A stretch of 64,000 nucleotides of DNA from an uncultured Candidatus Cenarchaeum sp. (GTDB taxonomy: Archaea > Thermoproteota > Nitrososphaeria > Nitrososphaerales > Nitrosopumilaceae). Location: NCBI GenBank assembly GCA_958295735.1, contig OY282369.1, positions 542,161 to 606,160 on the forward strand, read 5' to 3'. The notes beneath the pieces were generated by a model, which was not told the origin of the DNA, did not search any database, and saw nothing but the letters and a program-made list of their open reading frames with translations. Numbering within the stretch: the stretch's first letter is position 1; each line of letters begins with the position of its first letter. A program made the translations under genes and the position numbers. Positions 3,755 through 34,430 of this stretch are shown here, in pieces.

Positions 3755-3757
3755 GCA

Positions 3758-3792
3758 GCGCAAGGGCCGGCGATCCGCGCCGGGCTGCCGCC
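3758..3792. repeat. Single copy of the array intergenic repeat
   Basis: One 35-bp copy of the element found three times in each of the spaces at 13.4, 20.0 and 26.8 kb, with core GGCGATCCGCGCCGGGCTGC and an imperfect palindrome CCGGCG...CGCCGG. It is flanked on one side by the TATA box of A2 and on the other by the GC-rich 3' flank of member B. This is probably the unexpanded form of the site. Confidence 0.75.
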
Positions 3793-13414: not shown

Positions 13415-13417
13415 GCG

Positions 13418-13595
13418 GCGCGGCGGGCCGGCGATCCGCGCCGGGCTGCCGCCGGGGGCGCAAGAGGAGAAGGGCCGTCCCGGCCGAGGCGCGGCGGGCC
13501 GGCGATCCGCGCCGGGCTGCCGCCGGGGGCGCGGGAGGAGAAGGGCCGTCTCGGCCGAGGCGCGGCGGGCCGGCGATCCGCGCCGGGCTGCCGCC
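13418..13595. repeat. Three 36-bp direct repeats with two 35-bp spacers
   Basis: Copies at 13418-13453, 13489-13524 and 13560-13595, period exactly 71 bp. Shared core GGCGATCCGCGCCGGGCTGC. The two spacers (13454-13488, 13525-13559) differ at only a few bases, so this locus may have grown by tandem duplication of a 71-bp unit rather than by new spacer acquisition. The array lies between the stop of member C and the TATA box of member B. Confidence 0.8.
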
Positions 13596-16600: not shown

Positions 16601-19600
16601 GTTCTCGCCCGCGGGCGGGCCCGCGGTGGCGTTGTGCAGAACGACGACGCCAGATACCGCGTCCGTTGCGGAGGCCGCGCAGTAGTCGTTCGCCGACAGG
16701 GTGACCTCCGCGCCGCCGGCGCGCACCGTATAATCAGCGGGCGGCACCACCGAGGGCGGCGTCGCGTCGAGGACGGCCACCAGCTGCGTGTCGCTGTCCG
16801 ACTTGCCGGTCGCCGCGTCGGTAGCGGTCCACGTCACTTCGGTGGTGCCGAGGGGGAACGACTGCCACGGTGGCTCGCGGGTTATGGCCAGCCCCTCCGG
16901 ATCCGCCCTCGGCGCGCCGAGGTCGACCGCGGCGGGGCCGCCCCGCGGCGACGCCTCCGCCGCCACGTCGTCCGGGGCCTCGATCGCGGGGGCCGCGCTA
17001 CGCGTGCCGGTAATGACCACGTTGTCTATGAGCATGCCGGACGCGTGAAGGGGGTTGGCCGGCAGGCCCCGCGCCGTAAACCTGATGCCGAGTTCCTCCA
17101 CGTCCATGAGGTTGGCGGGCAGCGCGACCGTCTCCGTCTCGAACCTGATCGTCTGCTCGCCCGCGCCCCATTCTTCTATCAGCTGCCATCCCGTGCCGTT
17201 CCACGCGTGGGCCTCCAGGTACGATCCCGGCGACATCTGCGGCGCGTAGCGGGACAGTTCCAAGCTGGCCGACGAGTACGCGGTCATGTCGATGCCGAAC
17301 TTCGAGTACGCCTCGTGCGGCTCCGAGCCGTAGGACTCGAGGTGGGGGGATGACGGGTCGGCGCTCTCGACGATCCCCCACCCGGCGCCCGGCCGGATCC
17401 AGTCGGCGAGGTGCCTGTCGAACGTGGCGTTCATCTGGACGGGGGCCCATTTCGGGGGATCCGTCACCGTGACGTTGACGCGGGCCAGCTCGATCTTCCC
17501 CGAGGAGTCGGCGCGCACCACCACGAAGTTTTCCCCCACGTCGGCCCTGGCCGGATTCAGGATCAGCGTCCCCGTGCCGTCCCCGTTGTCGCGCATGGCG
17601 GCTCCCCCGTACCCGTCGTTGAGCAGGCTGTCGAACCCCTGGCGCACGCTGAGCGACGTTTCGGCGCCCGGGGGGGAGGCGGCCGACACCGGCACCGCCG
17701 CCTCCCCCGCATGGCTGACGGTCACGGCGGGAATGGCATCGAATGCCGGAAGATCCGAGGAGTTGAACGGCATCCGGTGCAGGTCCATTATGTTTTCCAT
17801 GCTGCCGAGCCCCGGCTGCCTTTCCCACCGCGCGTAGAACTGCTCGGCGGTCTGCGGGCCGTCCCGCACGATCTGCATGATCTCGTCGGCCCCCATGTGG
17901 AGGTCGTCCAAGTTGTCCCCCTCCGGGAACACCACGCCCGTCGGGTCGCCGAAGTTGTCGACATTCACCACGGTCTTCCTGCGGTCGTGCACCTCGGCCG
18001 CCGTCCCGTCGTAGACGTCCCAGAGGGCCCCCGCCACCTGTATCTCCGTCTGCTTGTCGGTGGAGTTGTCGTAGTCGAACAGGATGTAGTACGCGTTCCC
18101 CGAACGGTACAGTTCGCGCTCCATGTCGACGTAGGTGTCCTCGTACTCCCGCAGCACCGGGGAGGCATCCACCGCGTGCGGGACGAAGTACGCGAGGCCC
18201 TCGCCGAACGCGCATCCCGGGGATATTTTTTGCCTAAAATGATGCTTGCAGCCCTCGGCCTTCCCCCCCAGGTGGCTGTGCGCGTGGTGGCCGTACTCGT
18301 GCTGGATGACGTACCTGCTCTCCGACATGTCGCCCGTCGTCGGGACCGCGGCCAGCCCGTCGAGGAACATCCTGGAGTAGAATGCCTGGTAGTACGCGTG
18401 GGAAGTGCTGACGCGTGCCTGCCCCGGCCAGGCTTCTATGATGCGCTCGCCGTGCTGCCAGTATACCGCGACCGGCGGGATCTCGGCGCCGATCTCCTTT
18501 ACGAAGAAGGCCCTCGCGTCCGATATCGCGTCCACTATCCGGGCGGCCCCGTTCATCGCGGGCGTCCCCACGTCCATGTCGAGCCGCGCGTTTCCGGCCG
18601 CGCGATCCCGCAGGTGGGTGGTGGAGTTCTCCGAGTACAGCCAGTCCGTCGCGTTCTTGTTCCTGACGAGCACCCCGCCCCCAAACGAGTACACCTCGAT
18701 GCGCAGGTCCGGCCCCGTCCCGTCCCCGTCCGGATCCGTGTTGTTGAGGGGCCCCAGCACGTACATGCCGTACCCGTTCGTGAACGTGCAGGCATCCGTC
18801 CCGTCCTCGTACCCCACGTGCGAGGAGCCGCCGTCCGCGCCCACGTCGGAGGCGCACACGCGCAGGCCGTGCGCGGGCCCCGTCGAGTCGGAATACGGGA
18901 GATCCATCCGGATCTGCCCGTACAGCACGAGGTCCCCGGCGCCCGCATCCGCCGCGCCGCTGCCGTTGCCGGGGCCGGTCCGGGCGGGCTCGGGCCCCGG
19001 CTGCGCGGCGCGCTGATGCCCGGCCGGGGCGGCGCCTGCGCCGCCGGCGTGCCCCGCCCAGCTTCTTGCGGGGATCCAGGGGGCGGCGCCGGCGGGCGCC
19101 GGGACGGGCGCGCCCCCGCGGGGCGCCTCGAGGGCCGCCCTGGCCGCATCTGCCGAAACCGGGCCGCCTGGCGGCCCCGCGCCCCGCGGGCCCGCCCGCT
19201 CCGGCGGATCAGGCGCCGCGGCGGGCTGCGGCTGCCCCGCGGCACCCCTGCCGGCGGCCGGCGCCACGTCCAGGACCAGCCGGGCGGCCCCGCGCAGGAA
19301 CCCCGCCGCGTCGATCACGGTGATGCCCTCCTCGGCGGGAAGCACTGTGAACTCGAACCGGTACTCCCGGCCGGGCGTCGCCGCCAGCGTCCCCCCGATC
19401 TCCGTGTAGGCATTCCCGCCGGCCTCCCCGTGCGACGGCGCGCCGAGGGCCGGATCAGACGACAGCACAGTAACGTCCCCGCCGAACAGCACGCGGACGG
19501 AGGTGTCGGCCTCGTCCTCGTATGCGTCGGGGAACTCGATCGCGCCGATGGTGCCGTCCCCGCGCATTACCGCTGCGGTGAGGGGAAGCGTCGTGGCGAC

Positions 19601-19981
19601 GACCACGGAGAGCGGCTCGCCCGCGGCAGGCCGGGAGGACGCGGCGATCGTCGTGTTGGACGGGTTCGGGCGATCCGCGTACCCGGACGAGGCGTAGGGC
19701 GCCGCGCGCTCCGGCGGCCGCGGCTCTTGCAGGCCGGGGGAGGCCCCCTGCTGCCCCTCTGCGAGCGCTGCGGCAGGCGGGCCCGCGGCGCACGCCGGAT
19801 CCGAGGGCGCCCGCCCCGCGCCGCACGCCGCGTCGGACGCTGTCGGCCCCGCCGCATCGTTTTGGAGAGGCAGGGCCGCGGCCAGGGCGGGCGCCGCGAC
19901 GGCCGCGGCTGCAATGGTGGCAACGAGCAACCAAGGCGCGGGGCGCCGCGGCGCCGATCCGGCGCGCTCGTGCAGAGCCAC
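13637..19981 (-). CDS. Giant surface protein member C (2114 residues)
   Basis: Start taken at GTG 19981 (VALHERAGSAPRRPAPWLL), aligning with the ATG starts of paralogues and 26 nt from a TATA-like box. The frame is open further upstream into the intergenic repeats, which I reject as coding. Signal peptide; NPSNTTIAAS beta domain; linker; DLVLYG domain; peptidase module with HEYGHHAHSH (about 18270-18302) and GEGLAYFV, a variant of GEGFADFF that keeps the Glu; Ig-like; MAM-like beta domain; two HYR-like repeats; nine 20-residue repeats RSFPASAPALADGADLMPP (15578-16117); one GSPELLLDAG repeat; PBP1-like domain; C-terminal domain ending VSC. Intact, with no poly-G tract. Likely a secreted zinc peptidase or adhesin; family membership of the peptidase is inferred from motifs only. 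Confidence 0.85.
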   Translation of the reverse strand: MALHERAGSAPRRPAPWLLVATIAAAAVAAPALAAALPLQNDAAGPTASDAACGAGRAPSDPACAAGPPAAALAEGQQGASPGLQEPRPPERAAPYASSGYADRPNPSNTTIAASSRPAAGEPLSVVVATTLPLTAAVMRGDGTIGAIEFPDAYEDEADTSVRVLFGGDVTVLSSDPALGAPSHGEAGGNAYTEIGGTLAATPGREYRFEFTVLPAEEGITVIDAAGFLRGAARLVLDVAPAAGRGAAGQPQPAAAPDPPERAGPRGAGPPGGPVSADAARAALEAPRGGAPVPAPAGAAPWIPARSWAGHAGGAGAAPAGHQRAAQPGPEPARTGPGNGSGAADAGAGDLVLYGQIRMDLPYSDSTGPAHGLRVCASDVGADGGSSHVGYEDGTDACTFTNGYGMYVLGPLNNTDPDGDGTGPDLRIEVYSFGGGVLVRNKNATDWLYSENSTTHLRDRAAGNARLDMDVGTPAMNGAARIVDAISDARAFFVKEIGAEIPPVAVYWQHGERIIEAWPGQARVSTSHAYYQAFYSRMFLDGLAAVPTTGDMSESRYVIQHEYGHHAHSHLGGKAEGCKHHFRQKISPGCAFGEGLAYFVPHAVDASPVLREYEDTYVDMERELYRSGNAYYILFDYDNSTDKQTEIQVAGALWDVYDGTAAEVHDRRKTVVNVDNFGDPTGVVFPEGDNLDDLHMGADEIMQIVRDGPQTAEQFYARWERQPGLGSMENIMDLHRMPFNSSDLPAFDAIPAVTVSHAGEAAVPVSAASPPGAETSLSVRQGFDSLLNDGYGGAAMRDNGDGTGTLILNPARADVGENFVVVRADSSGKIELARVNVTVTDPPKWAPVQMNATFDRHLADWIRPGAGWGIVESADPSSPHLESYGSEPHEAYSKFGIDMTAYSSASLELSRYAPQMSPGSYLEAHAWNGTGWQLIEEWGAGEQTIRFETETVALPANLMDVEELGIRFTARGLPANPLHASGMLIDNVVITGTRSAAPAIEAPDDVAAEASPRGGPAAVDLGAPRADPEGLAITREPPWQSFPLGTTEVTWTATDAATGKSDSDTQLVAVLDATPPSVVPPADYTVRAGGAEVTLSANDYCAASATDAVSGVVVLHNATAGPPAGENSVWIADPDPSGGSAAADFPVGNTSTVTWLALDRSGNPGTATQNVTVVRSDAPHIPVSVVRAWADPGSPREPGSAMMLHVDFSHPVALTAAMSGEAPGSLRPSLEMKGGGSAAYASGNGTGRLTFSYTVQPGETAPDYAGTGALGGPCTIRSAADNRGADLELPPRSFPASAPALADGADLMPPRRSFPASAPALADAADLMPPRRSFPASAPAFADGASLGLHERSFPASAPALADGADLMPPRRSFPASAPALVDGASLGPPERSFPASAPAFADAADLEPPERSFPSSAPAFADGASLGPPERSFPASAPALEDAAAMMPPRRSFPASAPALADAAALVPSDPGPPGIPRVVDVTSDAGVGVYGAGRTVGLRVGFSEPVAVSGSPELLLDAGAPGAAATYASGSGTSSLAFEYAVRAADAAADLDYSGTGALKLNGGSISSLHGEAADLALPDPAAEPGLLAGPGRIVVGTKPQVPVGVFSGGPGDPSAEAARLGASAFNGLSAERGYAFFVDASEYSLPAGAGAAAALRGAHDGGRGPALYVGPASDGALHGMAGYAAANGITLVSHSSAARSLAVERDGMYRLEPGAAHMARVLALEIARGGFDAVVPAVQADLYGSAAAGGPSPGYGLLGPLASDLAPLGIPVGRPVEFSGTPGSGAAGSIGAAVLAAGGSGTSRNVAVVYVGSDSALAAIAGNAGAGSPVRERSAWFAAGGAGAGAGSGVAASPLVLSDAAALKMARDTRLAAVQFAVERNSVTDGIDAAVAAATPAASTPAYAAYEAARVIGRALALAGGDPTGAGGHVARAADLDGGPLGRMGVDGSGDLRLPVTYGAWSVSGTAAEWERAPALLRGMDACGIALEKSSLELPALSPGSKSRPARQTITNTGTVPTAAVSIHATDWTQFRDGAPLPAPPLPFSYTEISVGLAGASPREADSAPLEAGTEIPGGTPPGGRVDVDFRINLSDLDRLEADFISQTVTYGVSC
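15578..16117 (-). repeat. Nine in-frame 60-bp repeats in member C
   Basis: Tandem 60-nt units encode nine versions of RSFPASAPALADGADLMPP, with variation mainly in the last third (ADLMPPR, ASLGPPE, ADLEPPE). They sit between the HYR/beta region and the GSPELLLDAG repeat, where other members have short PDPG linkers, so they are probably an extended stalk. Unit-to-unit DNA identity is high, implying recent expansion. Confidence 0.85.
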
Positions 19982-20002
19982 GAAGGACGGTATGCGGCGC
20001 CG

Positions 20003-20010
20003 AATAATAA
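20003..20010 (-). promoter_or_regulatory. TATA-like box of member C
   Basis: Minus-strand TTATTATT centred about 26 nt upstream of GTG 19981. This spacing is the main reason for choosing the GTG start. Confidence 0.65.
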
Positions 20011-20014
20011 GGCG

Positions 20015-20186
20015 GCGCAGCGGGCCGGCGATCCGCGCCGGGCTGCCGCTTCGGCTTCGCGCACGCGCCGCCCGCGGGGGCGCAGCGGGCCGGCGATCCG
20101 CGCCGGGCTGCCGCCTCTTCACGCCCCGCACGCTGGCAATCCCCTCGGAGGCGCAGCGGGCCGGCGATCCGCGCCGGGCTGCCGCC
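20015..20186. repeat. Three 35-36 bp direct repeats with two unrelated spacers
   Basis: Copies at 20015-20049, 20080-20115 and 20151-20186 are nearly identical and begin GCGCAGCGGGCC. Spacers 20050-20079 (30 nt) and 20116-20150 (35 nt) show no similarity to each other. Periods are 65 and 71 bp. The site is between the stop of member E and the TATA box of member C. It looks like a minimal CRISPR array, but no cas gene is in the window. Confidence 0.8.
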
Positions 20187-20219: not shown

Positions 20220-23200
20220 CTAGGAGCAGTTGGCGACGAACGTGACGGTCTGCGATATGATGTCGGCCTCGAGCGCGTCCAGGCCCCCCAGGTTGATCCG
20301 GAAGTCGACGTCCACGCTGCCGCCCGGCGGCGTCCCCCCGGGTATCACGGTGCCCGCGGCCAGCGGGGCGGAGTCGGCCCGCCGCGGGGAGGCGCCGTCC
20401 AGGCCCACGGCCATCTCCGTGTACGAGAACGGCAGCTGTCCAGGTATGGGGACGCCGTCCCTGAACTGCGCCCAGTCCGTGGCGGACACGGACACCGCGG
20501 GCATCGGGCCGGTTCCTATGTTCGTCACGGTCTGCCGCGCCGGCCTGCTCGTGCTCCCCGCGGACAGCTCGGGGAGGGCGAGCGCCGACTTTTCCAGATC
20601 TATCCCGCACGCGTCCAGGCCCCGGAGCAGCTCGGGGGCCCGCGCCCACTCCGCCGCCGTATCGGACACGGACCACGCGCCGTACGTCACGGGAAACCGC
20701 AGGTCGCCGGAGCCGTCCATGCCCGTGCGGCCGAGCGGGCCGCCGGTCAGGGCCGCCGCGCCCGCTATGTTCCCCCCCGCGAGGGACGGGTCGCCCCCGG
20801 CCCCCACCAGGGCGCCGCCCAGCGCGCGGACGGCCTCGTACGCGGCGTAGGCCGGCGTGGCCGATGTGGCGGGGCCGCGCGGGGCCGCGATGCGGTCTAT
20901 GTAGTCCGTCATGGAATTGCGCTCCACGGCGAACTGGACGGCGGACAGCCGCACGTCGCGGGCCAGCTGTATGGCCGCCGCATCGGCCAGTATGGCGGGC
21001 GACGCGGCCACCCCGTTCCCCGCGCCGGCCCCCGCGCCGCCGGCGGCGAACCACGCCGACCTCTCACGTATGGGGCCGTCCGCCGGCACGCTGCCGGCCA
21101 TCGCCGCGAGTTCCGCATCCGAGCCCATGTACACGACGGCGACGCTCCTGGCCGTCCCGCTCCCGGCGGCCGCCGCCACGGCGGTTTCTATGGGCGCGGC
21201 CGCCGCGCCGCCGCCGCCCCCGGCGAACGCGACGGGCTCGCCGACGGGTATCCCGAGCGCCTCCAGGTCCGATTCCAGCGATTCCAGCAGGCCGTACCCG
21301 GGGCCGTGCAGGCCGGCCTGCACCACGGGGACTACGGCGCCGTACCCGCCCCGCGCCACCTCCGTCGCGAGGGCCCTGGCCAGGTGCGCCGCGCCGGGCT
21401 CCATCCGGAATATCCCGTCGCCTTCCACGGCCAGCGAGCGCGACGCCGACGAGTGCGATATTATCGTGATGCCGTTCTCCGAGGCGTACCCGGCCATGCC
21501 GGCCAGCGCTATATCGGAGGCCGGGCCCACGTACAGGGAGGGGCCGCTCCCGCCCCCGTGCGCCCCGCGGAGCGCCGCCGCGCCGGAGGCGCCCGCCGGG
21601 AGATCGTGCGCGGACACGCTGACGTAGAACTGGTAGCCGCGCTCCTTCGAGACGGCGTTGAAGGCGGCAGCCCCCAGCCTCGCCGCCTCGGCCGACGGGT
21701 CGCCGGCGCCGCGCGCGAACACGCCCACCCGCACGGGCTGCTTGCCGGCCTGCCCGGTCCCGTCGGGCCCGCCGGTGGACTTTTCGCCGGGATTCTCTAC
21801 GGGGTTCCCGAAGGCGTCCGTGACGTTCGCGGACAGGTCGAATCCCACGGCGGAGCTGGCCGAGGCGGTCGTGCTCGCGTTCGCGTTCCACGACACTACC
21901 ACGTTGTTCCCGTACGCGGCCGCCCCGGAGGCGCCGCCGCTGTTCCCCGCTGCCGCGGCGCCGCCCACCGTGATGTTCGTATAGTGGGAGGGGACGGCAA
22001 GCACCGGCTCCGAATAGACGGCGGCCATAGAGCTGCCGTTCAGCACGAAGGCCAGCAGGAAGGACGGGCGGTCGGGATCGCGCGCGACGTCCAGCAGCGC
22101 CCGCTCCGGCGCGTGCGCCGCGCGGCCGTTGGTGACGAAGCCGGCGGGCAGCAGCAGCGTGGTGGACTCCTGATCCGAGAACGCGGCCGCGTCCAGCGCT
22201 TCCCGCACCCGGTCGGACACGAGAAGCACGAAGGTCCTGTCCCCCGTGCTGCCGGACTCGACGGACAGTATATCGGCGGCAGACAGAGAGACCGCGGCGT
22301 CGCCTCCCCAGCTCCGGCCGCGGATCTCGATCATTCCTGGGAACGACTGCGCGCCGGGCGCGGTCGCGGCCTCGTCAAACGTCATGACGAGCCGGCCCGC
22401 GTTGCCGCCGGCCGGCGCCAGGTTGAAGGATGCCGCGGCGAGGCGCGGGGGCGATGGATCCTGCACGTACGCGAGCGGGACGGCCGGCTGGCCGCCCGGC
22501 GCGTACCCGTTGCCGGATGCGTCGGACACGAAGGCGGCGGGCAGCTCGATGGTGGCGGAGCCCAGGTCCGCCGCGTTGAGCTCCACGCGCTTGGCGCCGG
22601 AGATGTCCAGCGCGAACGCCGCGTCCCCCGCGCGGCCCGATGCCACGGAGGGAATGTCGCCGCTGGACAGCGCAACCTCCCCGCCGCCTCCCCGTATTAC
22701 TATCTCCCCCGCGAACGACCGCACGTCCGGCGCGGCGGCGGCCGCCTCGCCGAACGTAATAGTGAGCCGGCCGTTCTCTCCGGCCGTCAGGTCGAGGGCG
22801 GCGGATTCGAGCAGGGGGGCCTGGCCGCCCGACGGCCCCGGGTCGGGCAGCTCCAGGTCGGCCCCCCTGTTGTCGGCCGCGCTCCGTATAGTGCACGGCC
22901 CGCCCAGCGCGTCCGTTCCGGCATAGTCGGGGGCCGTCTCGCCCGGCTGCACCGTGTACGAGAAAGTGAGGCGGTCCGTCCCGTTCCCGGACGCGTACGT
23001 GGCGCTCCCGCCGCCCTCCATTTCAAGGGACGGTTTGAGGGAGCCCGGCGCCTCCCCGGACATGGCGGCAGTCAGGGCCACGGGGTGCGTGAACTCTACG
23101 TGCATCGTCATCGCGGAGCCCGGCTCGCGCGGCGAGCCCGGATCGGCCCACGCCCGTACGGCTGACACGGGGACGTGCGGGTCGTCCGACCGCACCACCG

Positions 23201-26200
23201 TCACGTCCTGCGTGGCGGTTGCGGGGTTGCCTGAACGGTCCAGGGCCAGCCACTTTACCGTGGTGGTGCTTCCGACGGGAAAGTACAGCGGGGCATTGTC
23301 CGGTATGATGACGTCCGAGACCGCGTCCGCGGCGGTGGCCTCGCAGTAGTCGTCTATGTACAAGGCGACGTCTGCGCCGCTGGCGCGCACCGTATAGTCA
23401 GCGGGCGGCGTCACCGAGGGCGGCGTCGTGTCAATGACCGTCACCCGCTGAGTGTCGCTGTCGGATTCTCCGGTCGTCGTGTCGGTCGCGGTCCACGTCA
23501 CTTCGGTGGTCCCGAGCGGGAACGACTGCAACTGCGGCTCGCGGGTTATGGCCAGTCCCGTTTGGGGATCCGTCGTGGGCGCGCCGAGGTCTGCTATGGT
23601 GGTGCCGCCGGGCGAGGCCGCTTCCGCCCTCACGTCGCCCGGTGCCTCGATCGCCGGGTTTCCGCCGCGCGTGCCTGTGATGACCACGTCGTCGACGACC
23701 ACGCCGAACTGGTCCAGGGGGTCGGCCGGCAAGCCCCTCGCCACAAACACTATGGTAAAGTCCTCCACCATCAGGTCTGCCGGCAACACGACAGTCTCTG
23801 CCTCGAATCCGCCCGTTGCCGCATCCGCGCCCCACTCTTCGATCTGCTCCCACCCGCCCGTGCTGTTAAACGCGTATACCCGCAGGTAGGAGCCCGCCTC
23901 CAGAAGCGGAGCATCGCGGAAAAATTCCAGGGTGGCCGACGAGTGCGCCGTCATGTCTATGGGAGTTGATAATACGCATCCCAGGTTTTCTGACCTAAAC
24001 GCGAGGTGATAGTCGGGCGTGTCGCCAGACCATACGATCCTCCACTCGTCGCTGGCGCTGCAACCCGTTCCTTGGATCCAGTCGACAAGGCCCTTGTCGA
24101 ATGTGTCGTTCAGCTGGACGGGAGCCCACTTCGGGGGATCCGTCACCGTGACGTCGACGCGGGCCAGCTCGACGTTTCCGGAAGAGTTGGCGCGCACCAC
24201 TACGAATTTTTCCCCCACGTCGGCCCTGGCGGGGTTCAGGATCAGGGTCCCCGTGCCGTCCTCGTTGTCGTCCATGGCGGCCCCAACGTAATGCAAGTCG
24301 TACTCGTTTTCGAACCCCTGACGCACATCGAGCGATACGTCGGCGCCCCCCGGAATGGTAGCAGACACCGGCACCGCGGCCTCTCCGGTATGGCTGACGG
24401 TTACGGGAGGGATCGGAGCAAACGCCGGAAGGTCCCCCGTGGAGTTGAACGGCATCCGGTGCAGGTCCATTATGTTTTCCATGCTGCCGAGCCCCGGCCG
24501 CCTTTCCCAGCGCACGTAGAACTGCTCGGCGTTCTGAGGGCCGTCCCGCACGATCTGGATGATCTCGTCGGCCCCCATGTGGAGATCGTCCAAGATTCCA
24601 CTTTCCGGAACAGCTTGCCCGCCGGCCCACAACCTCTTGCGGTCGTGCGTTTCGTCCACATGCTCGTCGTACACGTCCCAGAGAGCCCCCACCACCTGTA
24701 TCTCCGTCTGCTTGTCGGTGGAGTCGTTGTAGTCGAACAGGGTGTAATAGTCGTCGCCTACGCGGTACAGTTCGCGCTCCATGTCGACGTAGGTGTCCTC
24801 GTATTCCCGCAGTTCCGGCGCGTCGTCCACCATATGCGGGACAAAGTACGCGAGGCCCTCGCCGAACGCGCATCCCGGGGATATTTTTTGATCGAAACGG
24901 TGCGTGCAGCCCTCGGGCGGCCCTCCCAGGTGGGCGTGCGCGTGGTGGCCGTACTCGTGCTGGATGACGTACCTGCTCTCCGACATGTCGTGTGTTGCAG
25001 ATGTGTCCAATCCGCCTAGGAATATCTCGGAGTCAAGTGCAACGTAGAACGCATCGCCGCTGTCTGCATGTTCTGGCCAGGCATTTGCGACCCGGCTACC
25101 GTAGTGCCAGAATACCGTGACCGGCGGGATCTCGGCCCCTAGATCTTCTTTGAAGTGGGCCTTCGTGTCCGATATTACGCCCACTATGCGGGCGGCCCCG
25201 TTCATCGCATCCGACTCCACGTCCATGTCGAGCCGCGCGTTTCCGGCCTCGCGATCCCGCAGGTAATGCGGGCTGGGCTCGTAGTACGGCAGTCGCGCGC
25301 TGTCCCTGACCGACACCCCGTCGCCGAACGAAGATACATCGATGCTCAGATCCGGCCCCGTCCCGTCCCCGTCCGGATCCGTGTTGTCGAGTGGCCCCAG
25401 CACGTACCAGCCGTGCTCGTTCGCGAATGTGCAGGCAACCGTCCCATCCGTGTAGTTCAACAGCGTCTCGCTGGCATCCACAAGGTTGTAGTCGGTAGCG
25501 CACACGAACAGGCCGTGCGCGGGCCCCCTCAAGTCGGAGTACGGGAGCTCCATCCGGATCTCCCCGTACAGCACGAGATCCCCGGCGCCCGCATCCGCCG
25601 CGCCGCTGCGGGAGCCGTGGCCGCCCGTGGCGGGTTCGGGCCCCGGCAGCGCGGCGCGCTGATGCCCTGACGGGCCGGGGCCGCCTCGCCCCGCCAGGCT
25701 GCCCGCTGGAATCCCGGAGTCGGCGCCGGCGGGTGCCGGGACGGGCGCGTCCTCGCGGGGCGCCTCGAGGGCCGCCCTGATCGCGTCGTCCAAGCTCGGG
25801 CCGCCTGGCGGCCCCGCGCCCCGCGGGCCCGCCCGCTCCGGCGTATCCGGCGCCGCGGCGGACTGCGGATTCCCCTGCGCGTTCCGGCCGGCGGCCGGCG
25901 CCACGTCCAGTACAAGCCGGGCCGCCCCGCGCAGGAACCCCGCCGCGTCGATCACCGTCGCGCCCGCCTCGGTGGGAAGCACCGTGAACTCGAACCGGTA
26001 CTCACGGCCGGGCGTCGCCGCCAGCGTCCCCCCGATCTCCGTGTACGTGTTCCCGCCGGCCTCCCCGTGCGACGGCGCGCCGAGTGCGGGATCCGATGAC
26101 AGTACCTTGACGTCCCCGCCGAACAGCACGTGGACGGAGGTGTCCGCCTCGTCCGTATGCCCGTCGGGGAACTCGATCTCTCCGATGCTTCCGTTCCCGT

Positions 26201-26609
26201 GCATTACCGCCGCGGTGAGGGGAAGCGTGGTAGTGAGAACCACGGAAAGCGGCTCGCCCGCGACCGGCTTGGAATGCACGGAGATCGTCGTGTTGGACGG
26301 GTTGGGGCGATCCGCGTACCCGGACGAGGCGTAGGGCGCCGCGCGCTCCGGCGGCCGCGGCTCTTGCAGGCCGGGGGAGGCCCCCTGCTGCCCTTCTGCG
26401 GGCGCTGCGGCAGGCGGGCCCGCGGCGCACGCCGGATCCGCGGGCGCCTGCCCCGCGCCGCACGCCGCGTCGGACGCTGTCGGCCCTGCCGCATCGTTTT
26501 GGAGAGGCATGGCCGCGGCCAGGGCGGCCGCCACGACGACCGCGGCGGCAACGAGCAACCAAGTCGCGGGGCGCCGCGGCGCCGATCCGGCGCGCTCGTG
26601 CAAAGCCAC
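20220..26609 (-). CDS. Giant surface protein member E (2129 residues)
   Basis: Start GTG 26609 (VALHERAGSAPRRPATWLL), 26 nt from a TATA-like box; stop TAG 20220-20222. Modules: Ala/Val-rich signal peptide; NPSNTTISVH beta domain; Pro-rich linker; DLVLYGEIRM transthyretin-like domain; zinc-peptidase module with HEYGHHAHAH and GEGLAYFV (about 24850-24960); Ig-like; MAM-like; two HYR-like domains; then a pair of ESAALDLTAGENGRLTITF-type beta domains shared with members D and the NHL protein at 46.3-58.8 kb but not with B or C; PBP1-like domain; C-terminal domain ending FVANCS. The N-terminal third is closest to member C and the middle to member D, so the gene is a mosaic. Secreted; peptidase and ligand-binding roles are inferred from modules. 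Confidence 0.85.
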   Translation of the reverse strand: MALHERAGSAPRRPATWLLVAAAVVVAAALAAAMPLQNDAAGPTASDAACGAGQAPADPACAAGPPAAAPAEGQQGASPGLQEPRPPERAAPYASSGYADRPNPSNTTISVHSKPVAGEPLSVVLTTTLPLTAAVMHGNGSIGEIEFPDGHTDEADTSVHVLFGGDVKVLSSDPALGAPSHGEAGGNTYTEIGGTLAATPGREYRFEFTVLPTEAGATVIDAAGFLRGAARLVLDVAPAAGRNAQGNPQSAAAPDTPERAGPRGAGPPGGPSLDDAIRAALEAPREDAPVPAPAGADSGIPAGSLAGRGGPGPSGHQRAALPGPEPATGGHGSRSGAADAGAGDLVLYGEIRMELPYSDLRGPAHGLFVCATDYNLVDASETLLNYTDGTVACTFANEHGWYVLGPLDNTDPDGDGTGPDLSIDVSSFGDGVSVRDSARLPYYEPSPHYLRDREAGNARLDMDVESDAMNGAARIVGVISDTKAHFKEDLGAEIPPVTVFWHYGSRVANAWPEHADSGDAFYVALDSEIFLGGLDTSATHDMSESRYVIQHEYGHHAHAHLGGPPEGCTHRFDQKISPGCAFGEGLAYFVPHMVDDAPELREYEDTYVDMERELYRVGDDYYTLFDYNDSTDKQTEIQVVGALWDVYDEHVDETHDRKRLWAGGQAVPESGILDDLHMGADEIIQIVRDGPQNAEQFYVRWERRPGLGSMENIMDLHRMPFNSTGDLPAFAPIPPVTVSHTGEAAVPVSATIPGGADVSLDVRQGFENEYDLHYVGAAMDDNEDGTGTLILNPARADVGEKFVVVRANSSGNVELARVDVTVTDPPKWAPVQLNDTFDKGLVDWIQGTGCSASDEWRIVWSGDTPDYHLAFRSENLGCVLSTPIDMTAHSSATLEFFRDAPLLEAGSYLRVYAFNSTGGWEQIEEWGADAATGGFEAETVVLPADLMVEDFTIVFVARGLPADPLDQFGVVVDDVVITGTRGGNPAIEAPGDVRAEAASPGGTTIADLGAPTTDPQTGLAITREPQLQSFPLGTTEVTWTATDTTTGESDSDTQRVTVIDTTPPSVTPPADYTVRASGADVALYIDDYCEATAADAVSDVIIPDNAPLYFPVGSTTTVKWLALDRSGNPATATQDVTVVRSDDPHVPVSAVRAWADPGSPREPGSAMTMHVEFTHPVALTAAMSGEAPGSLKPSLEMEGGGSATYASGNGTDRLTFSYTVQPGETAPDYAGTDALGGPCTIRSAADNRGADLELPDPGPSGGQAPLLESAALDLTAGENGRLTITFGEAAAAAPDVRSFAGEIVIRGGGGEVALSSGDIPSVASGRAGDAAFALDISGAKRVELNAADLGSATIELPAAFVSDASGNGYAPGGQPAVPLAYVQDPSPPRLAAASFNLAPAGGNAGRLVMTFDEAATAPGAQSFPGMIEIRGRSWGGDAAVSLSAADILSVESGSTGDRTFVLLVSDRVREALDAAAFSDQESTTLLLPAGFVTNGRAAHAPERALLDVARDPDRPSFLLAFVLNGSSMAAVYSEPVLAVPSHYTNITVGGAAAAGNSGGASGAAAYGNNVVVSWNANASTTASASSAVGFDLSANVTDAFGNPVENPGEKSTGGPDGTGQAGKQPVRVGVFARGAGDPSAEAARLGAAAFNAVSKERGYQFYVSVSAHDLPAGASGAAALRGAHGGGSGPSLYVGPASDIALAGMAGYASENGITIISHSSASRSLAVEGDGIFRMEPGAAHLARALATEVARGGYGAVVPVVQAGLHGPGYGLLESLESDLEALGIPVGEPVAFAGGGGGAAAAPIETAVAAAAGSGTARSVAVVYMGSDAELAAMAGSVPADGPIRERSAWFAAGGAGAGAGNGVAASPAILADAAAIQLARDVRLSAVQFAVERNSMTDYIDRIAAPRGPATSATPAYAAYEAVRALGGALVGAGGDPSLAGGNIAGAAALTGGPLGRTGMDGSGDLRFPVTYGAWSVSDTAAEWARAPELLRGLDACGIDLEKSALALPELSAGSTSRPARQTVTNIGTGPMPAVSVSATDWAQFRDGVPIPGQLPFSYTEMAVGLDGASPRRADSAPLAAGTVIPGGTPPGGSVDVDFRINLGGLDALEADIISQTVTFVANCS

Positions 26610-26630
26610 GAAAGATGGTCGGCAACGCCG

Positions 26631-26638
26631 AATAATAA
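26631..26638 (-). promoter_or_regulatory. TATA-like box of member E
   Basis: Minus-strand TTATTATT centred 26 nt upstream of GTG 26609; identical in layout to that of member C. Confidence 0.6.
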
Positions 26639-26727
26639 GGCGGCGCAACGGGTAGTCTCTCACAACCACGCCTACGACGACCGCGCCGGGGCAGTTTTCA
26701 CGCCTAAAATTCGAATTACGGGACGGG

Positions 26728-26904
26728 CTAGCGGCTGGACGGCGATCCGCTCCGGGCTGCCGACAGGACAGGATCGATCGGGCCGGCCGCGGCCTTTACT
26801 AGCAACGGCCAGAGATCCGCGCCGGGCTGCCGCATTTCCGCCGCCGTCCTTTTCACCTGCACCTCGGCGCTAGCAACGGCCAGAGATCCGCGCCGGGCTG
26901 CCGC
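26728..26904. repeat. Three 35-bp repeats with two unrelated 36-bp spacers
   Basis: Copies at 26728-26762, 26799-26833 and 26870-26904. The last two are identical (start CTAGCAACGGCCAGAG, end CGCCGGGCTGCCGC); the first is degenerate. Spacers 26763-26798 and 26834-26869 are unrelated to each other. Period is 71 bp. The left half of this intergenic region (26640-26727) is unusually AT-rich with no gene. A degenerate terminal copy plus identical inner copies is the pattern of a small CRISPR array. Confidence 0.8.
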
Positions 26905-26938
26905 CCCGCGGCCGGCGGGGCGCGGGAGGCGGCCCCGG

Positions 26939-29900
26939 CTAGGAGCAGTTGACGACGAACGTGACGGTCTGCGATATGAAGTCGGCATCGAGCGCGTCCA
27001 GGCCATCCAGGTTGATCCGGAAGTCGACGTCCAGGCTGCTGCCCGGCGGCGTCCCTCCCGGTATCTCGGTGCCCGCGGCCAGCGGGGTTGAGTCGGCCCG
27101 CCTGGGGGAGGCGCCGTCCAGGCCCACGGCCATCTCCGTGAGCGAGAACGGCAGCTGTCCCTGCACGGGGACGCCGTCCCTGAACTGCGCCCAGTCCGTG
27201 GCGGACACGGACACCGCGGGCATCGGGGTGGTTCCCACGTTCGTCACGGTCTGCCGCGCCGGCCTGCTCGTGCTCCCCGCGGACAGTTCGGGGAGGGCGA
27301 GCGCCGGCTTTTCCAGATCTATCCCGCACGAGTCCAGGCCTCGGAGCAGCGCGGGGGCGCGCTCCCACTCCGCCGAGGTATCCGAGACCGACCACGCGCC
27401 GTACGTCACGGGCAGCCGCAGGTCGCCGGAGCCGTCCATGCCCGTGCGGCCGAGCGGGCCGCCGACCAAGGCCGCCGCGCCCGCCACGTTCCCCCCCGCG
27501 AGGGACGGGTCGCCCCCGGCCAGCACCAGGGCGCCGCCCAGCGCGCGGACGGCCTCGTACGCGGCGTAGGCCGGAGTGGCCGATGTAGCGGGGCCGCGCG
27601 GGGCCGCGATGCGGTCGATGTAGTCCGTTATGCTGTTGCGCTCCACGGCGAACTGGACGGCGGACAGCTGTACGTCGCGGGCCAGCTGCATGGCCGCCGC
27701 ATCGGCCAGCACGGCGGGCGACGCGGCCACCCCGCTCCCCGCGCCGGCCCCCGCGCCGCCAACAGCGAACCATGCCGACCTCTCCCGTATGGGGCCGTCC
27801 GCCGGCACGCTGCCGGCCATCGCTGCGAGCTCCGCATCCGAGCCCATGTACACGACGGCGACGCTCCTGGCCGTCCCGCTCCCGGCGGCCGCCGCCACGG
27901 CGGCCCCCACGGGCGCGGCCGCCGCGCCGCCGCCCCCCGCGAACGCGACGGGCTCGCCTACGTGTATCCCGAGCGGTTCCAGGTCCGATTCCAGCTGTTC
28001 CAGCAGGCCGTACCCGGGGCCGTGCAGGTCGGTCTGCACCACGGGGACTATGGCGCCGTACCCGCCCCGCGCCACCTCGGCCGCGAGGACCCTGGCCAGG
28101 TGCGCCACGCCGGGCTCCATCCGGAATATGGGATCGCCCCCCATGGCAAGCGGGCGCGCCGCCGACGAGTGCGATATTATTGTTATCCCGTTCTCCGAGG
28201 CGTAGTCGGCCATGCCGGCCAGCGCCGTGTCGGAGGCCGGGCCCACGTACAGGGAGGGGCCGCTCCCGCCGCCGTGCGCCCCGCGGAGCGCCGCCGCGCC
28301 TAGAGCGCCCGCCGGGAGATCGTGCTCGGACACGTCGACGTAGAACGCGTAACCGCGCTCCACCGATACGGCGTTGAAAGCGGCGGCCCCCAGCCTCGCC
28401 GCCCCCATGGAGGGGTCGCCGGCGCCGCGCGCGAACACGCCCACCCGCACGGGCTGCTTGCCGGCCTGCCCGGTCCCGCCCGGCCCGGCGGTGTACTTTG
28501 CGCCGGGGTTTTCAAGCGGGTTACCGAAGGCGTCAGTGACGTTCGCGGACAGGTCGAATCCCACGGCGGAGCCGGCCGCGGCGGTCGTGCTCGCGTTCGC
28601 GTTCCACGACACTATAACGTTGTTCCCGAACGCGGCCGCGTCGGAGGCGCCGCCGCCGTTCCCCGCCGCCGCGGCGCCGTCCACCGTGATGTTCGCGTAG
28701 TGAGAGGGGACGGCAAGCACCGGCTCCGAATAGACGGCGGCTACGGAGCTGCCGTTCAGCACGAATGCCAGCAGGAAGGCCGGGCGGTTGGGATCGCGCG
28801 CGACGTCCAGCGGCGCCCGCTCCGGCGCGTGCGCCGCGCGGCCGTTGGTGACGAAGCCGGCGGGCAGCAGCAGCGTGGTGGACTCCGGATCCGAGAACGC
28901 GGCCGCGTCCAGCGCCGCCCGCGCCCGGTCGGACACGAGAAGCACGAAGGTCCTGTCCCCCGTGCTGCCGGACTCGACGGACAGTACGTCGTCGGCGGAC
29001 AGGGTGACCGCGGCGTCGCCTCCCCCGCTCCGGCCGCGGATCTCGATCATTCCGGGGAACGACTGCGCGCCGGGCGCGGTCGCGGCCTCGTCGAACGTTA
29101 TAACGAGCCGGCCCGCGGCGCCGCCGGCCGGCGCCAGGTTGAAGGATGCCGCGGTGAGGCGCGGGGGCGAGGGATCCGGCACGTACGCGAGCGGGACGGG
29201 CGGCTGGCCGCCCGGCGCGTACCCGTTGCCGGATGCGTCGGACACGAAGGCGGCGGGCAGCTCGATGGTGGCGGAGCCCAGATCGGGCCCGTTGAGCTCC
29301 ACGCGCTTGGCGCCGGAGATGTCCAGCGCGAACGCCGCGTCCCCCGCGCGGCCCGATGCCACGGAGGGAATGTCGCCGCTGGACAGCGCAACCTCCCCGC
29401 CGCCTCCCCGTATTACTATCTCCCCCGCGAACGACCGCACGTCCGGCGCGGCGGCGGCCGCCTCGCCGAACGTAATAGTGAGCCGGCCGTTCTCTCCGGC
29501 CGTCAGGTCAAGGGCGGCGGATTCGAGCAGGGGGGCCTGACCGCCCGACGGCCCCGGGTCGGTCGGCCCCGGGTCGGTCGGCCCCGGGTCGGTCGGCCCC
29601 GGGTCGGTCGGCCCCGGGTCGGTCGGCCCCGGGTCGGTCGGCCCCGGGTCGGGCAGCTCCAGGTCGGCCCCCCTGTTGTCTGCCATGCTCCGTATAGTGC
29701 ACGGCCCGCCCAGCGCATCCGTTCCAGCATAGTCGGGGGCCGTCTCGCCCGGCTGCACCGTATACGAGAAAGTGAGGCGGTCCGTCCCGTTCCCGGACGC
29801 GTATGTGGCGCTCCCGCCGCCGTCCATTTCAAGGGACGGCAAGAGGGAGCCGGGCGCCTCCCCCGACATGGCGGCGGTCAGCGCCACGGGATGCGTGAAC

Positions 29901-32900
29901 TCCACGTGCATCGTCATCGCGGAACCCGGCTCGCGCGGCGAGTCGGGGTCGGCCCACGCCCGCACGGCCGACACCGGGACATGCGGAGTGCCAGACTGCA
30001 CCACCGCCACATTCTGCGTGGCGGTTCCTTGGTTGCCCGAATAGTCCAGGGCCAGCCACGTCACCGTGGAGGTGCTCCCCACGGGGAAGCCCGCGGCGGC
30101 CGGGCCGCCGGAAGGATCAGGGTTCGCGATCCACGTGGAGTTCTCGCCCGCGGGCGGGCCCGCGGTGGCGTTGTGCAGCACGACGACGTCCGATACCGCG
30201 TCTGTTGCGGAGGCCGCGCAGTAGTCGTTGACGGACAGGGAGACCTCCGCGCCGCCGGCGTATACCGTATAGTCCGCGGGCGGCGCCACCGAGGGCGGCG
30301 TCGCGTCGAAGACGGTCACCCACTGCGTGTCCGTGTCCGATTTTCCGGTCTCCGGGTCGGTAGCGGTCCACGTCACTCTAGTGGTCCCGGGGGAGAAGGG
30401 CCCCTGCGGCTCGCGGGTTATGTCCAGCCCCGATGCGGGATGCGTCGTCGGCGCGCCGAGGACGACCGCGGTGGTGCTGCCCGGCGACGCCGCTTCCGCC
30501 TTCACGTCGTCGGGTGCCTCGATCGCGGGGCCGGCAAGAGTGCCGGTGATAGCCACGTCGTCTATTCGCACGCTGAACGGGTCAGAGGAGTTGGCCGGCA
30601 AGCCCTTCGCCACAAACGCAATGCGGAAGTTATCCACCAACAAGTCGGGCGGCAGCACAACTGACTCTTCTTCGAATCCAACCGTCACGTTGTCAGCGCC
30701 CCATCTGCCGATCAGCCACCAGTTCTCAAACAACCACCACTCTTCGACGGTCACCGCGTAGATATCCAGGTACGAGCCCGCCTCCAAGAGTGGCGCGCTG
30801 CGGAGCAGTCTCAACTCAGCCGATGCGTACGCAGTCATGTCTATGCTGCGTCTCATAAACGCGTCGCTCTCTCCATTGGCCTTGAACCGGAGGTGTGGAG
30901 CAGACGAGCCACCTTCCTGGTCGATCCACCACCCGTCGACGTCGCTCCACCGTGTGGAGAGCCAGTCGGCATCGTCCCTGTCGAAGGTGGAATTCAGCTG
31001 GACGGGGGCCCACTTCGGGGGTTCCGTCACCGTGACGTCGACGCGGGCCAGCTCGACGTTTCCAGAAGAGTTGGCGCGCACCACCACGAAGTTTTCCCCC
31101 ACGTCGGCCCTGGCGGGACGCAGGATCAGCGTTCCCGTGCCGTCCCCGTTGTCGTCTATGGTGGCACCCCCGTACGGGTCGTCGTGCTTGTCGTCGAACC
31201 CCTGGCGCACATCGAGTGATACGCTGGCGCCCCCCGGATGGGTGGCCGACACCGGCACCGCGGCCTCTCCCGTATGGCTGACGGTTACGGCTGGAATGGC
31301 GTCAAACACAGGGAGGTCCCCCGTGGCGTTGAACGGCATCCGGTGCAGGTCCATTATGTTGGCCATGCTTCCCAAATCCGCCTGCTTTTCCCACCGCACG
31401 TAGAACTGCTCGGCGTTCTGCGGGCCGTCCTGCACGATCTGGATGATCTCGTCGGCCCCCATGTGGAGGTCGTCCAAGATTCCACTTTCCGGAACAGTTT
31501 GCCCGCCGGCCCGCGACCTCTTGCGGTCGTGTGTTTCGTCAACATGCTCGTCGTACACGTCCCAGAGGGCCCCCGCCACCTGTATCTCCGTCTGCTTGTC
31601 GGTGGAGTTGTCGTAGTTGAACAGTATGTCAATGTAAGTACCATAATATGCCACCTCCTGCTCTATGTTAACGAAGACGTCCTCGTAGTCTCGCAGTTTC
31701 GCGGCGCCGTCAACCATATGCGGAATAAAATATGCGAGACCTTCGCCAAACGCGCATTCCGGGGATATCTTTTGCTTGAAATGGTGCGTGCAACCCTCGG
31801 ACGGCCCTCCTAAGTGGGTTTGCACATGGTGGCCGTACTCGTGCTGGATGGTGTACCTGCTCTCCGACCAGTCGTACGATGCGTTGGACTTCAACCCGTC
31901 GAGGAATATCCCACGTTGGGTGTAGAATGCCGTATCGCCGTCGTCCGCAAGTTTCGGCCAAGCTTTTGCGACGGGTTTGCCGTAATGCCAGAACACGTCG
32001 ACTGCCGGGATCTCGATGCCGAGCTCCTCCTCAAAGTAGGCCTTTGTGTCCGATATCGCGTCCACTATGCGGGCGGCCCCGTTCATCGCGTCATCCTCCA
32101 CATCCATGTCGAGCCGCGCGTTTCCGGCCTCGCGATCCCGCAGGTAATACGAGCTAGCTTCGTAGTACGGCAGCGTCGTGTTGTCCATGACGTACATCCC
32201 GTCGCCGGCAGAAAGCACGTAGATGCTCAGATCCGACCCCGTCCCGTCCCCGTCCGGATCCGTCCCGTCAAGGGGCCCCAGCACGTACCAGCCGTGCTCG
32301 TTCGCGAATGTGCAAGCGGCCGTCCCATCCGTGTAGTTCAACAGCGTCTCGCTGGCATCCACAATGTTGTAGTCGGTAGCGCACATGTACAGGCCGTGCG
32401 CGGGCCCCGTCAAGTTGGAGTACGGGAGCTCCATCCGGATCTGCCCGTACAGCACGAGATCCCCGGCGCCAGCATCCGCCGCGCCGCTGCGGCTGCCGGG
32501 GCCGCCCGGGGCGGGTTCAGGCCCAGGTAGCGCGGCGCGCGGATGCCCGGACGGGCCGGGGCCGCCGCGCCCCGCCAGGCTGCCGGCGGGAATCCCGGAG
32601 TCGGCGCCGGCGGGCGCCGGGACTGGCGCGCCCGCGCGGGGCGCCGCGAGGGCCGCCCTGATCGCGTCGTCCAAACTCGGGCCGCCTGGCGGCCCCCCGT
32701 CCCGCGGGCCCGCCCGTTCCGGCGGATCCGGCGCCGCGGCGGACTGTTGATTCCCTTGCGCGCTCAGGCCGGCGGCCGGCGCCACGTCCAGTACAAGCCG
32801 GGCCGCGCCGCGCAGGAACCCCGCCGCGTCGATCACGGTGACGCCCTCCTCGGCGGGAAGCACCGTGAACTCGAACCGGTACTCTTGGCCGGGCGTCGCT

Positions 32901-33506
32901 GCCAGCGTCCCCCCGATCTCCGTGTACGCGTTTCCGCCTGCCTCGCCGCGGAACGGCGCGCCAAGGGCCGGATCCGAGGTCAGCACCGCGACGTCCCCGC
33001 CGAACAGCACGTACACCGAGGTGTCGGCCTCGTCCGTATACCCGTCGGGGAACTCGATCACCCCAATGCTTCCGTTCCCGCGCATTACCGCCGCCGTCAG
33101 GGGAAGCGTCGTAGTAACGACCACGCCGAGCGGCTCGCCCGCGACCGGCCGGGAGGACGCTGAGATCGTCGTGTTGGACGGGTTGGGGCGATCCGCGGAC
33201 CTGGACGATGCGTACGGCGCTACGGGCTCCGGCAGCAGCTGCTCCTGACGGCCTGTAGTGCCGTCAGGATGTCCGCCCCCCCCCCCCCGAAGGAGCCGCG
33301 GCAGGCGGGCCCGCCGCGCATGCCGGATCCGCAGGCGCCTGCCCCGCGCCGCACGCGGCGGCAACCTCCGGCGCGGCCGCATCGTGCTGGGGCAGGGCCG
33401 CGGCCAGGGCGGCCGCCGCGACGACGGCCGCGGCGGCAACGGCAACGGCGGGCAACCAGAGCGCGGGGCGCCGCACTACCGTTCCGGCGCGCCCGTGCAA
33501 AGCCAT
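26939..33506 (-). CDS. Giant surface protein member D; out of frame at a G13 tract
   Basis: Start ATG 33506 (MALHGRAGTVVRRPALWLP; TATA box 27 nt upstream). The signal-peptide frame ends after 80 codons because of the G13 tract at 33276-33288. The frame beyond the tract is open to TAG 26939-26941, giving about 2188 residues if one G is lost. Modules: signal peptide; NPSNTTISAS beta domain; linker; DLVLYGQIRM domain; peptidase module HEYGHHVQTH with GEGLAYFI (about 31740-31842); Ig-like; MAM-like; two HYR-like; a Pro-Thr-Asp-Pro-Gly repeat linker (29556-29655); two ESAALDL beta domains; PBP1-like domain (about 27330-28470); C-terminal domain ending VVNCS. Very close to member E across the 3' half. 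The frameshift lies at the same protein position as that of member B. Confidence 0.85.
29556..29655 (-). repeat. 15-bp tandem repeat encoding PTDPG in member D
   Basis: Six to seven perfect 15-nt units (plus-strand GGTCGGTCGGCCCCG) encode repeated Pro-Thr-Asp-Pro-Gly. Member E has a single PDPGPSGG at the same place, so this is a recent in-frame expansion of a linker. Confidence 0.9.
33276..33288. repeat. C13 tract (G13 in member D), candidate phase-variation switch
   Basis: Thirteen consecutive C on the plus strand. From ATG 33506, 13 G leads to SGGGGRTS-stop. Twelve or fifteen G would join the signal peptide to HPDGTTGRQEQ and the rest of the protein. The assembled length is therefore OFF. 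Confidence 0.85.
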
Positions 33507-33579: not shown

Positions 33580-34430
33580 GGCCGGCCCGCCGATGCCGCC
33601 GCCGACTCGGCCCGGAGGCAGCAGCCGCGGGCCCTGCCGAGGGAGCGGCCGCGGGCCGCCCGGCCGCGCTTCGCCGCCGCCCGCAGCCGGCCCCCCGCCC
33701 CCGCCAGCGCGGGCAGCCCCCGCCGAGGCGCAGATCCTCCGGACCCGGAAGGGATGCGGCGGCGTGCCCGGCAGTCCGCGCGCGCGATCCGGCCGAAAAG
33801 GCGGGCTTTTTGCCGGCGAACCGGCGCGCGGGCTGGGACGCCGAGGCGCAGCGGGAGTATCCCGCGCGCCTCGCGGCGCGCCGCCGGGACGATCCCGGGG
33901 CTCCCCTCCCGCTCCCAGGCCAAAGCGCGCGCCGGCGGGCTGCCGCAGCGAGCGGGCCGCCCCACACGCGGGTACGGCGCCCGGCGCCGGACGTGATCCC
34001 CGCCATGTACAGCAGGCAACGAGCGGGCCGCCCCACATGCGGGTACGGCGCCTCCCAGATAACCCCGAACCGGCAGCCAGTCCGCCCCGCCACGCCGTCC
34101 GGGAACTCCGGCGGCGGCGCACGCGGCGGCGCGGGTTGCGCGGCCCGTCCCCCCGCCCCCGATGCCGTGCGACGCGGGCGCCTCCCCCCGCCCGCCCCGT
34201 CCGCCGCGCGCCCGGCTCCCCCGTCCCGCGCGGCTCCCCGCCCGGCCGCGCCCGCGCGCCCTCCCGCCGGCACGGCTCGCGCGGCCCGCCGGGCCGCGGC
34301 CGGGACGCGGCAACCTTCGCCGGGCCGGAGCCCGCGCCGATCGCGGCCCCGCCCCGCCCCCTGCCGCGAGCCGGGTCCGGCGGCCCCGCGCTGCCGCCGC
34401 CCCGCCCGTCCGGGACGGGGGCGGGCGGAT
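33580..34430 (-). pseudogene. Decayed copy of the 5' half and promoter of ppx
   Basis: DNA here aligns along its length with the intact ppx gene (41538-43088). Recognisable fragments in different frames are EFPDGVAGRTGCRFGV (intact EFLDDVAGRTGYRFRV), GAARSLRQP, RFAGKKPAF (RFADKKSAF) and ASLPGPEDLRLGGG (ASLPGPEELGLGGG). The match continues upstream of the start through the promoter, where the intact CCCTATTTATTC has become GC-only sequence, so the TATA box is gone. Frames are broken by several indels, including a 71-bp insertion at 33950-34020. Most differences from the intact gene are A/T to G/C. The 3' half of ppx is absent. Not expected to make protein. Confidence 0.8.
33950..34052. repeat. 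32-bp duplication around a 39-bp insert inside the ppx pseudogene
   Basis: Copies at 33950-33981 and 34021-34052 differ at one base and start GAGCGGGCCGCCCCACA. The intact ppx has one such segment (about 42717-42749). The extra 71 bp is one target copy plus 39 bp (33982-34020) of sequence not present at that point in ppx, though part of the insert (CATGTACAGCAGG) resembles nearby ppx sequence. Confidence 0.8.

Follow-up and report, generated by a model that had tools for sequence, protein, structure and literature searches.

A CRISPR-like locus between two giant genes

The gap between giant genes D and C carries direct repeats and intervening spacers in the form of a small CRISPR array, which raises the question of whether it is such an array or was made in some other way. 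Throughout, the window denotes the whole 64,000-nucleotide stretch that was analysed. We conclude that the locus is very probably a footprint left by the cell's own type I-G adaptation complex (a Cas4/1 fusion plus Cas2), which would have integrated spacers off target here more than once. On the minus strand, the gap is bounded by the end of gene D at 26939 and the start of gene C near 26669, and its layout from the D stop side towards C is a 38-nt flank, repeat, spacer, repeat, spacer, degenerate repeat and the TATA box of gene C. The parts are as follows (window coordinates).

26939–33445, minus strand: giant gene D, upstream of the locus
26905–26942, minus strand: 38-nt flank, from the gene D stop codon to the first repeat; identical at 38/38 positions to the flank of the single-copy gap and at 36/38 to that of gap C/B
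26870–26904, minus strand: repeat copy 1, nearest the stop codon, 35 nt; all 35 positions agree with copy 2, at a distance of 71
26834–26869, minus strand: spacer D1, 36 nt, the putative newest insert
26799–26833, minus strand: repeat copy 2, 35 nt
26764–26798, minus strand: spacer D2, 35 nt, the putative older insert
26728–26763, minus strand: repeat copy 3, degenerate

Coordinates and alignment bear out what a sequence-only reading had described: two identical 35-nt repeats and one degenerate terminal copy at a period of 71 (start-to-start spacings of 71 and 71), placed between a stop codon and the TATA box of the gene that follows. That reading also gave two unrelated 36-bp spacers. They are indeed unrelated (D1 aligned to D2 in the same orientation scores no better than shuffles), with lengths of 36 and 35 nt, D2 being one base shorter than stated. 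An exact 35-nt repeat in this gap lies far above chance expectation; a candidate fourth, older repeat copy is weak, equalled by 51 of 2,000 shuffles. Since the repeats around D1 are identical and the outer repeat is degenerate, D1 is probably the newer insert, having entered on the stop-codon side. No Rfam families or tRNAs were found in the 64-kb window.

A complete type I-G system with an unrelated repeat

The genome is a single contig (C1) of 3,166,131 bases with one Cas1 match (Pfam, E 5.5e-87; C1:2982586–2983428), which lies outside the window, about 2.4 Mb along the contig from the locus. The sequence-only remark that no cas gene is in the window would hold for the window only. The protein is a Cas4/1 fusion that best fits the Cas1g model (E 3.5e-172). 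Cas2 (Cas2g) adjoins it and Cas3g, Cas8g, Cas7g and Cas56g lie across a giant array, making a complete type I-G system. The sequence-only reading would have turned to a minisatellite-like product if cas genes were lacking everywhere and the spacers matched only neighbouring sequence; instead the full system is present, and D1 and D2 each occur at one place in the whole genome, with no other copy at ≤3 mismatches.

The native repeat, GCTTCAATGGGGCCGCAACATGAGAGTTGCGGAAAG (36 nt), is unrelated to the repeat of gap D/C. The proposed link to CRISPR was right, but the locus does not belong to the resident system as one of its arrays: its repeat duplicates the local sequence that adjoins the downstream TATA box. 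A 28-nt core of the native repeat matches the genome 532 times; all but two of the matches listed fall inside the array that starts at C1:2941291, and its final copies run up to cas2. Native spacers measure 33–39 nt (mode 35; 411 read), so that with a 36-nt repeat the native period is 71–72, the period seen in gap D/C. Insert lengths of 35 and 36 nt in gap D/C fall within this native range, with one spacer in a sister gap at 29 nt. The duplicated stretch is 35 nt in gap D/C and 36 nt in the sister gaps, and its genome-wide mode of 36 equals the native repeat length.

The array itself (C1:2941291–2981981; sampled stretches L072, L073 and L022) contains most of the 532 native-repeat matches, is interrupted between 2946164 and 2947509, and includes a block of 14 spacers that is present twice. 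A lone native-repeat-like sequence with 3 mismatches lies at C1:110142–110169, about 2.8 Mb along the contig from the array. On the cas3 side of the array, the target of one footprint (L072:16634–16815; C1:2939634 on) runs across the end of an isolated native repeat and is present in three copies at spacings of 70 and 72. A 20-bp tandem repeat array (L022:15925–16484) sits a few kilobases from cas1.

Homologous repeats in the giant-gene row

Genes A–D and F are paralogues of 2149–4136 aa, and three further gaps of this gene row hold copies of the gap D/C repeat, two as sister loci and one as a single copy, all missed by the sequence-only reading.

3826–13305: paralogue A
13637–20131: paralogue B
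20220–26669: paralogue C
46353–58763: paralogue F
20014–20185, minus strand: sister locus in gap C/B, three identical 36-nt repeats (at 20014, 20079 and 20150) with unrelated spacers of 29 and 35 nt
13417–13594, minus strand: sister locus in gap B/A, a 36-nt repeat in three identical copies, its two 35-nt spacers nearly identical (32/35)
3756–3791, minus strand: single target copy in the gap below gene A, a natural empty site in the order 38-nt flank, target, TATA box

The empty site belongs to a paralogous gap and is not an allele of gap D/C. A 24-nt core of the repeat is found ten times in the gene row: once below A and three times each in gaps B/A, C/B and D/C. Outside the row it is absent from the genome at ≤2 mismatches, and 40 relatives lack it at ≤3 mismatches; three other genomic matches, at 3 mismatches, resemble chance hits in GC-rich sequence. 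Searching the genome for cas1 and for larger arrays built on the gap repeat, as had been suggested, recovered cas1 and cas2; the repeat core stayed confined to the gene row at ≤2 mismatches.

The stop-side flanks of A and D are identical (38/38) and that of C matches either at 36/38, with the flank of B more diverged (33–35 of 47 aligned columns). Despite these near-identical flanks (three of the four gaps, 36–38/38), spacers of different gaps are unrelated. The repeats are identical within gap B/A, within gap C/B and in two of the three copies of gap D/C, and they differ between gaps. Seven of the ten copies carry a perfect hairpin, CCGGCG-ATCCG-CGCCGG, which is broken in all three copies of gap D/C. 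Gap B/A may be read as one insert that was afterwards copied as a unit.

The window contains two more footprints, unrelated in sequence:

2558–2665, no strand assigned: 38-nt repeat (1 mismatch), distance 70, 32-nt spacer
33949–34052, no strand assigned: 33-nt repeat (1 mismatch), distance 71, 38-nt spacer

Off-array repeats peak at the native period

Direct repeats at distances of 40 to 110 were listed in 1,316,001 bases of the genome (42%), made up of the window and 63 further stretches. Three classes were left out before counting: low-complexity pairs, pairs with the native repeat, and any match whose length exceeded 0.75 of the distance; the last filter takes out gap B/A and the repeat at L024:600–1131. 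The remaining off-array pairs number 17 at 70 bp, 37 at 71 and 26 at 72, and the range 69–74 holds 90 pairs, compared with 14 at 55–66 and 20 at 77–88. Background per distance (outside 66–76) averages 2.84 where the distance is a multiple of 3 and 0.56 where it is not, which summed over 69–74 accounts for about 8 of the 90. Repeat length peaks at 36 and then declines over 37–40, a profile that fits a 36-bp duplication with chance extension.

Removing L064 (one tandem family) and repeats outside 28–42 nt left 81 pairs at 72 sites, some of which are probably coding tandem repeats (for example, L121:449712, with 45-bp spacings). The repeats are perfect in 57 of the 81 pairs, and with the repeat set at 36 the spacers measure 33–38 nt, with a mode of 35 (37/81). 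A few sites hold three or even four repeat copies spaced at the native period. By a crude gene caller, 56 of the 72 sites are intergenic, compared with 27.5% of random windows. Arithmetic scaling of 72 sites in 42% of the sequence gives an estimate of ~170 sites in the whole genome.

Motif and folding signals at the targets are weak. A C-rich motif directly following the duplication outscores all 10 random controls by a small margin (576 versus 412–532), and off-array targets show no significant excess of foldability over GC-matched segments (p 0.10). At L024:600–1131, a 71-bp unit is repeated 7.5 times and ends in one extra repeat, as if a repeat–spacer–repeat had later been amplified.

Off-array inserts include the host's own DNA

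For ten of the 81 off-array spacers, another place in the sampled chromosome gives a match whose homology ends at the spacer ends (a confined match, defined as ≥75% of the spacer at ≥90% identity and stopping at its ends). Confined matches are rarer among controls, at 31 of 6,000 random segments and 6 of 645 taken close to the sites. The matching stretches are 29–36 nt long. Only this confined measure is raised, any match elsewhere being found for 12 of 81 off-array spacers and 1,297 of 6,000 random segments. By comparison, not one of the 397 distinct spacers of the array has a match outside it in the sampled chromosome (limits of 70% coverage and E 1e-4). Off-array inserts thus include host DNA, of which none is visible in the array. 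The self fraction seen is 12%, and may lie near 30% when scaled from 42% of the genome.

By eye, no clear PAM flanks the ten self-derived protospacers. Viral searches with both spacers of gap D/C, another suggested route to their origin, gave no source for either: D1 has no exact 24-mer in IMG/VR and no phage match, and D2 has a 21-mer match in one viral contig that extends to only 25/35 over the spacer, plus a 24-nt phage match at E 0.4.

Control genomes

The pattern accompanies Cas1 and Cas2 in this genome and is absent from a same-genus genome without cas1 (0 pairs at 66–77 bp in 400,000 bases). Relatives that do carry cas1 were sampled on a small scale and show none or one unlike pair. One of these (G008) has no such pair in 200,000 bases, and another (G025), whose own array has a 30-nt repeat, has a single unlike pair, 62 bp apart, and seven pairs spaced by 87 and 90 bp. 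A relative with the same Cas4/1 kind (G015) shows only its own 36-nt repeat in 96,791 bases and no footprint, so neither carrying cas1 nor having the Cas4/1 kind is by itself a predictor of footprint density. GC differs among these control genomes, and neighbouring distances within the same genome are the better control.

Probable off-target integration and its alternatives

At a CRISPR array, Cas1–Cas2 joins the spacer to opposite strands at both ends of a repeat, and gap filling doubles the repeat. We propose that the same chemistry would act off the array: Cas1–Cas2 would join a DNA piece of ~35 nt to both strands of a target at points ~36 bp apart, just as on a CRISPR repeat, and gap repair would duplicate the 36-bp target into repeat–spacer–repeat. 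The target here would be the sequence that separates the stop-side flank from the TATA box of the following giant gene, and in gap D/C it would have been hit at least twice, later inserts entering on the stop-codon side like new spacers at the leader end of a real array. The homologous targets of two sister gaps would have been hit independently, with the fourth gap still empty, and later copying of a finished unit could explain gap B/A and the 71-bp unit at L024:600–1131. Integration at a foreign target predicts the repeat and spacer lengths, the lack of shared sequence, an empty site, and repeats identical within gaps and not between them, all of which are seen. Lying between a stop codon and a promoter, the inserts are probably tolerated and without function, and processing to guide RNA is unlikely since they carry no native repeat.

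A minisatellite would form if slippage or unequal recombination duplicated a 71-bp unit, whose spacers then diverged as selection kept the repeats. Tandem copying of such a unit does occur at L024:600–1131, the spacers of gap B/A are nearly identical and most repeat copies have a perfect hairpin, all of which this reading would accommodate. It also demands homology of the whole unit between copies, which is found only in gap B/A and at L024:600–1131 and not at D/C. Within and between gaps C/B and D/C the spacers are unrelated, although the adjoining non-coding flank is conserved at 36–38/38; as the spacers differ while that 38-nt flank is kept in three of the four gaps, a pure minisatellite is ruled out for gap D/C. 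Nor can slippage place a spacer-length copy of distant chromosomal DNA between repeats, or account for a 70–72-bp peak of 36-nt repeats of unrelated sequence across the sampled genome, and the extra terminal repeat of the L024 array is what later amplification of a repeat–spacer–repeat would leave. We therefore regard this origin as very unlikely.

Still less probable is a functional orphan mini-array used in trans by the type I-G machinery. The repeat–spacer geometry, the two unrelated spacers and the degenerate end repeat are those of true arrays, and the effector complex is encoded in the genome; however, the gap repeat is unrelated to the native one and is explained by local sequence, which stands as a single copy in a sister gap, the cas genes are not adjacent, and 10 of 81 comparable inserts carry self DNA that a working array should not keep. 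Alternatively, tandem operators or hairpins might serve the gene row as a regulatory or terminator element conserved for function, as its location in four gaps, after the stop codon and ahead of the TATA box, its confinement to the row at ≤2 mismatches and the hairpin in 7 of 10 copies would allow. We give this reading the least credence of the three, as the repeats are alike within gaps B/A and C/B and differ between gaps, the hairpin is broken in gap D/C, and integration accounts for both the copy number (1 or 3) and the 71-bp period. Transposon insertion was rejected on inserts that lack a common sequence, and casposon integration on a target duplication of 36 bp, compared with the ~14–15 bp typical of casposons.

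Relation to known integration systems

Nivala, Shipman and Church (2018, Nat Microbiol 3:310) reportedly induced hundreds of sites in E. coli and found a few putative natural cases. Insertion of spacers outside the array by Cas1–Cas2, termed non-canonical integration or "neo-CRISPR" loci, is described where PMC11788318 and PMC9456107 cite that work. The locus studied here resembles such loci in that Cas1–Cas2 would have placed its spacers off the array. It differs from those of E. coli in being natural, in an archaeon with a type I-G system and at 72 sites in 42% of one genome, with homologous targets reused and a self-DNA fraction that can be measured. In vitro, S. thermophilus Cas1–Cas2 integrates broadly into non-CRISPR DNA with a preference for sequence resembling a leader–repeat junction, and its products are probably half-site and on plasmids, whereas those here are apparently complete and fixed in the chromosome (PMC6895254). 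The M. barkeri type I-G Cas4/1–Cas2, a fused integrase of the same kind, trims prespacers at a PAM and then integrates them (PMC10504553); unlike the present case, that work deals with directional integration at the array, and the term "off-target" is absent from it. For Sulfolobus, an accessory factor is proposed to normally prevent off-array integration (PMC9456107).

Integration outside arrays is known from induced and in vitro systems (PMC11788318, PMC9456107, PMC6895254, PMC10504553 and PMC11687729). Full-text literature searches, with most subscription papers outside their scope, brought up no published account of natural footprints collected across a genome. The process is known; its natural scale and the self-DNA contrast appear to be new.

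We lean towards one joint reading of these data, in which the CRISPR integrase of this archaeon is so permissive that it works as a mobile-DNA machine across the genome. Such an integrase would have left ~170 fixed footprints, spread self DNA and hit favoured targets again, with arrays arising and lengthening away from the cas locus. The footprints would then be a natural, unselected record of captured DNA, and the true array would be free of self DNA in the sample as self-targeting cells died. A single genome with dozens of natural footprints makes site choice, donor choice and fate directly readable. With self spacers off the array and none found within it, avoidance of self-immunity, whether by selection after capture or by bias before it, becomes testable from sequence, and a target hit repeatedly shows how a new array could begin. 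CRISPR finders may label such loci as orphan arrays.

Coding features of the gene row

A domain scan of A, C and D found an HYR domain in A and C and none in D. The listed open reading frames of A and D start in a frame other than that of the signal-peptide-like start of C, and ATGGCTTTGCACGG stands just upstream of the listed frame of gene D (window 33380–33445). This difference suggests a frameshift or a different true start.
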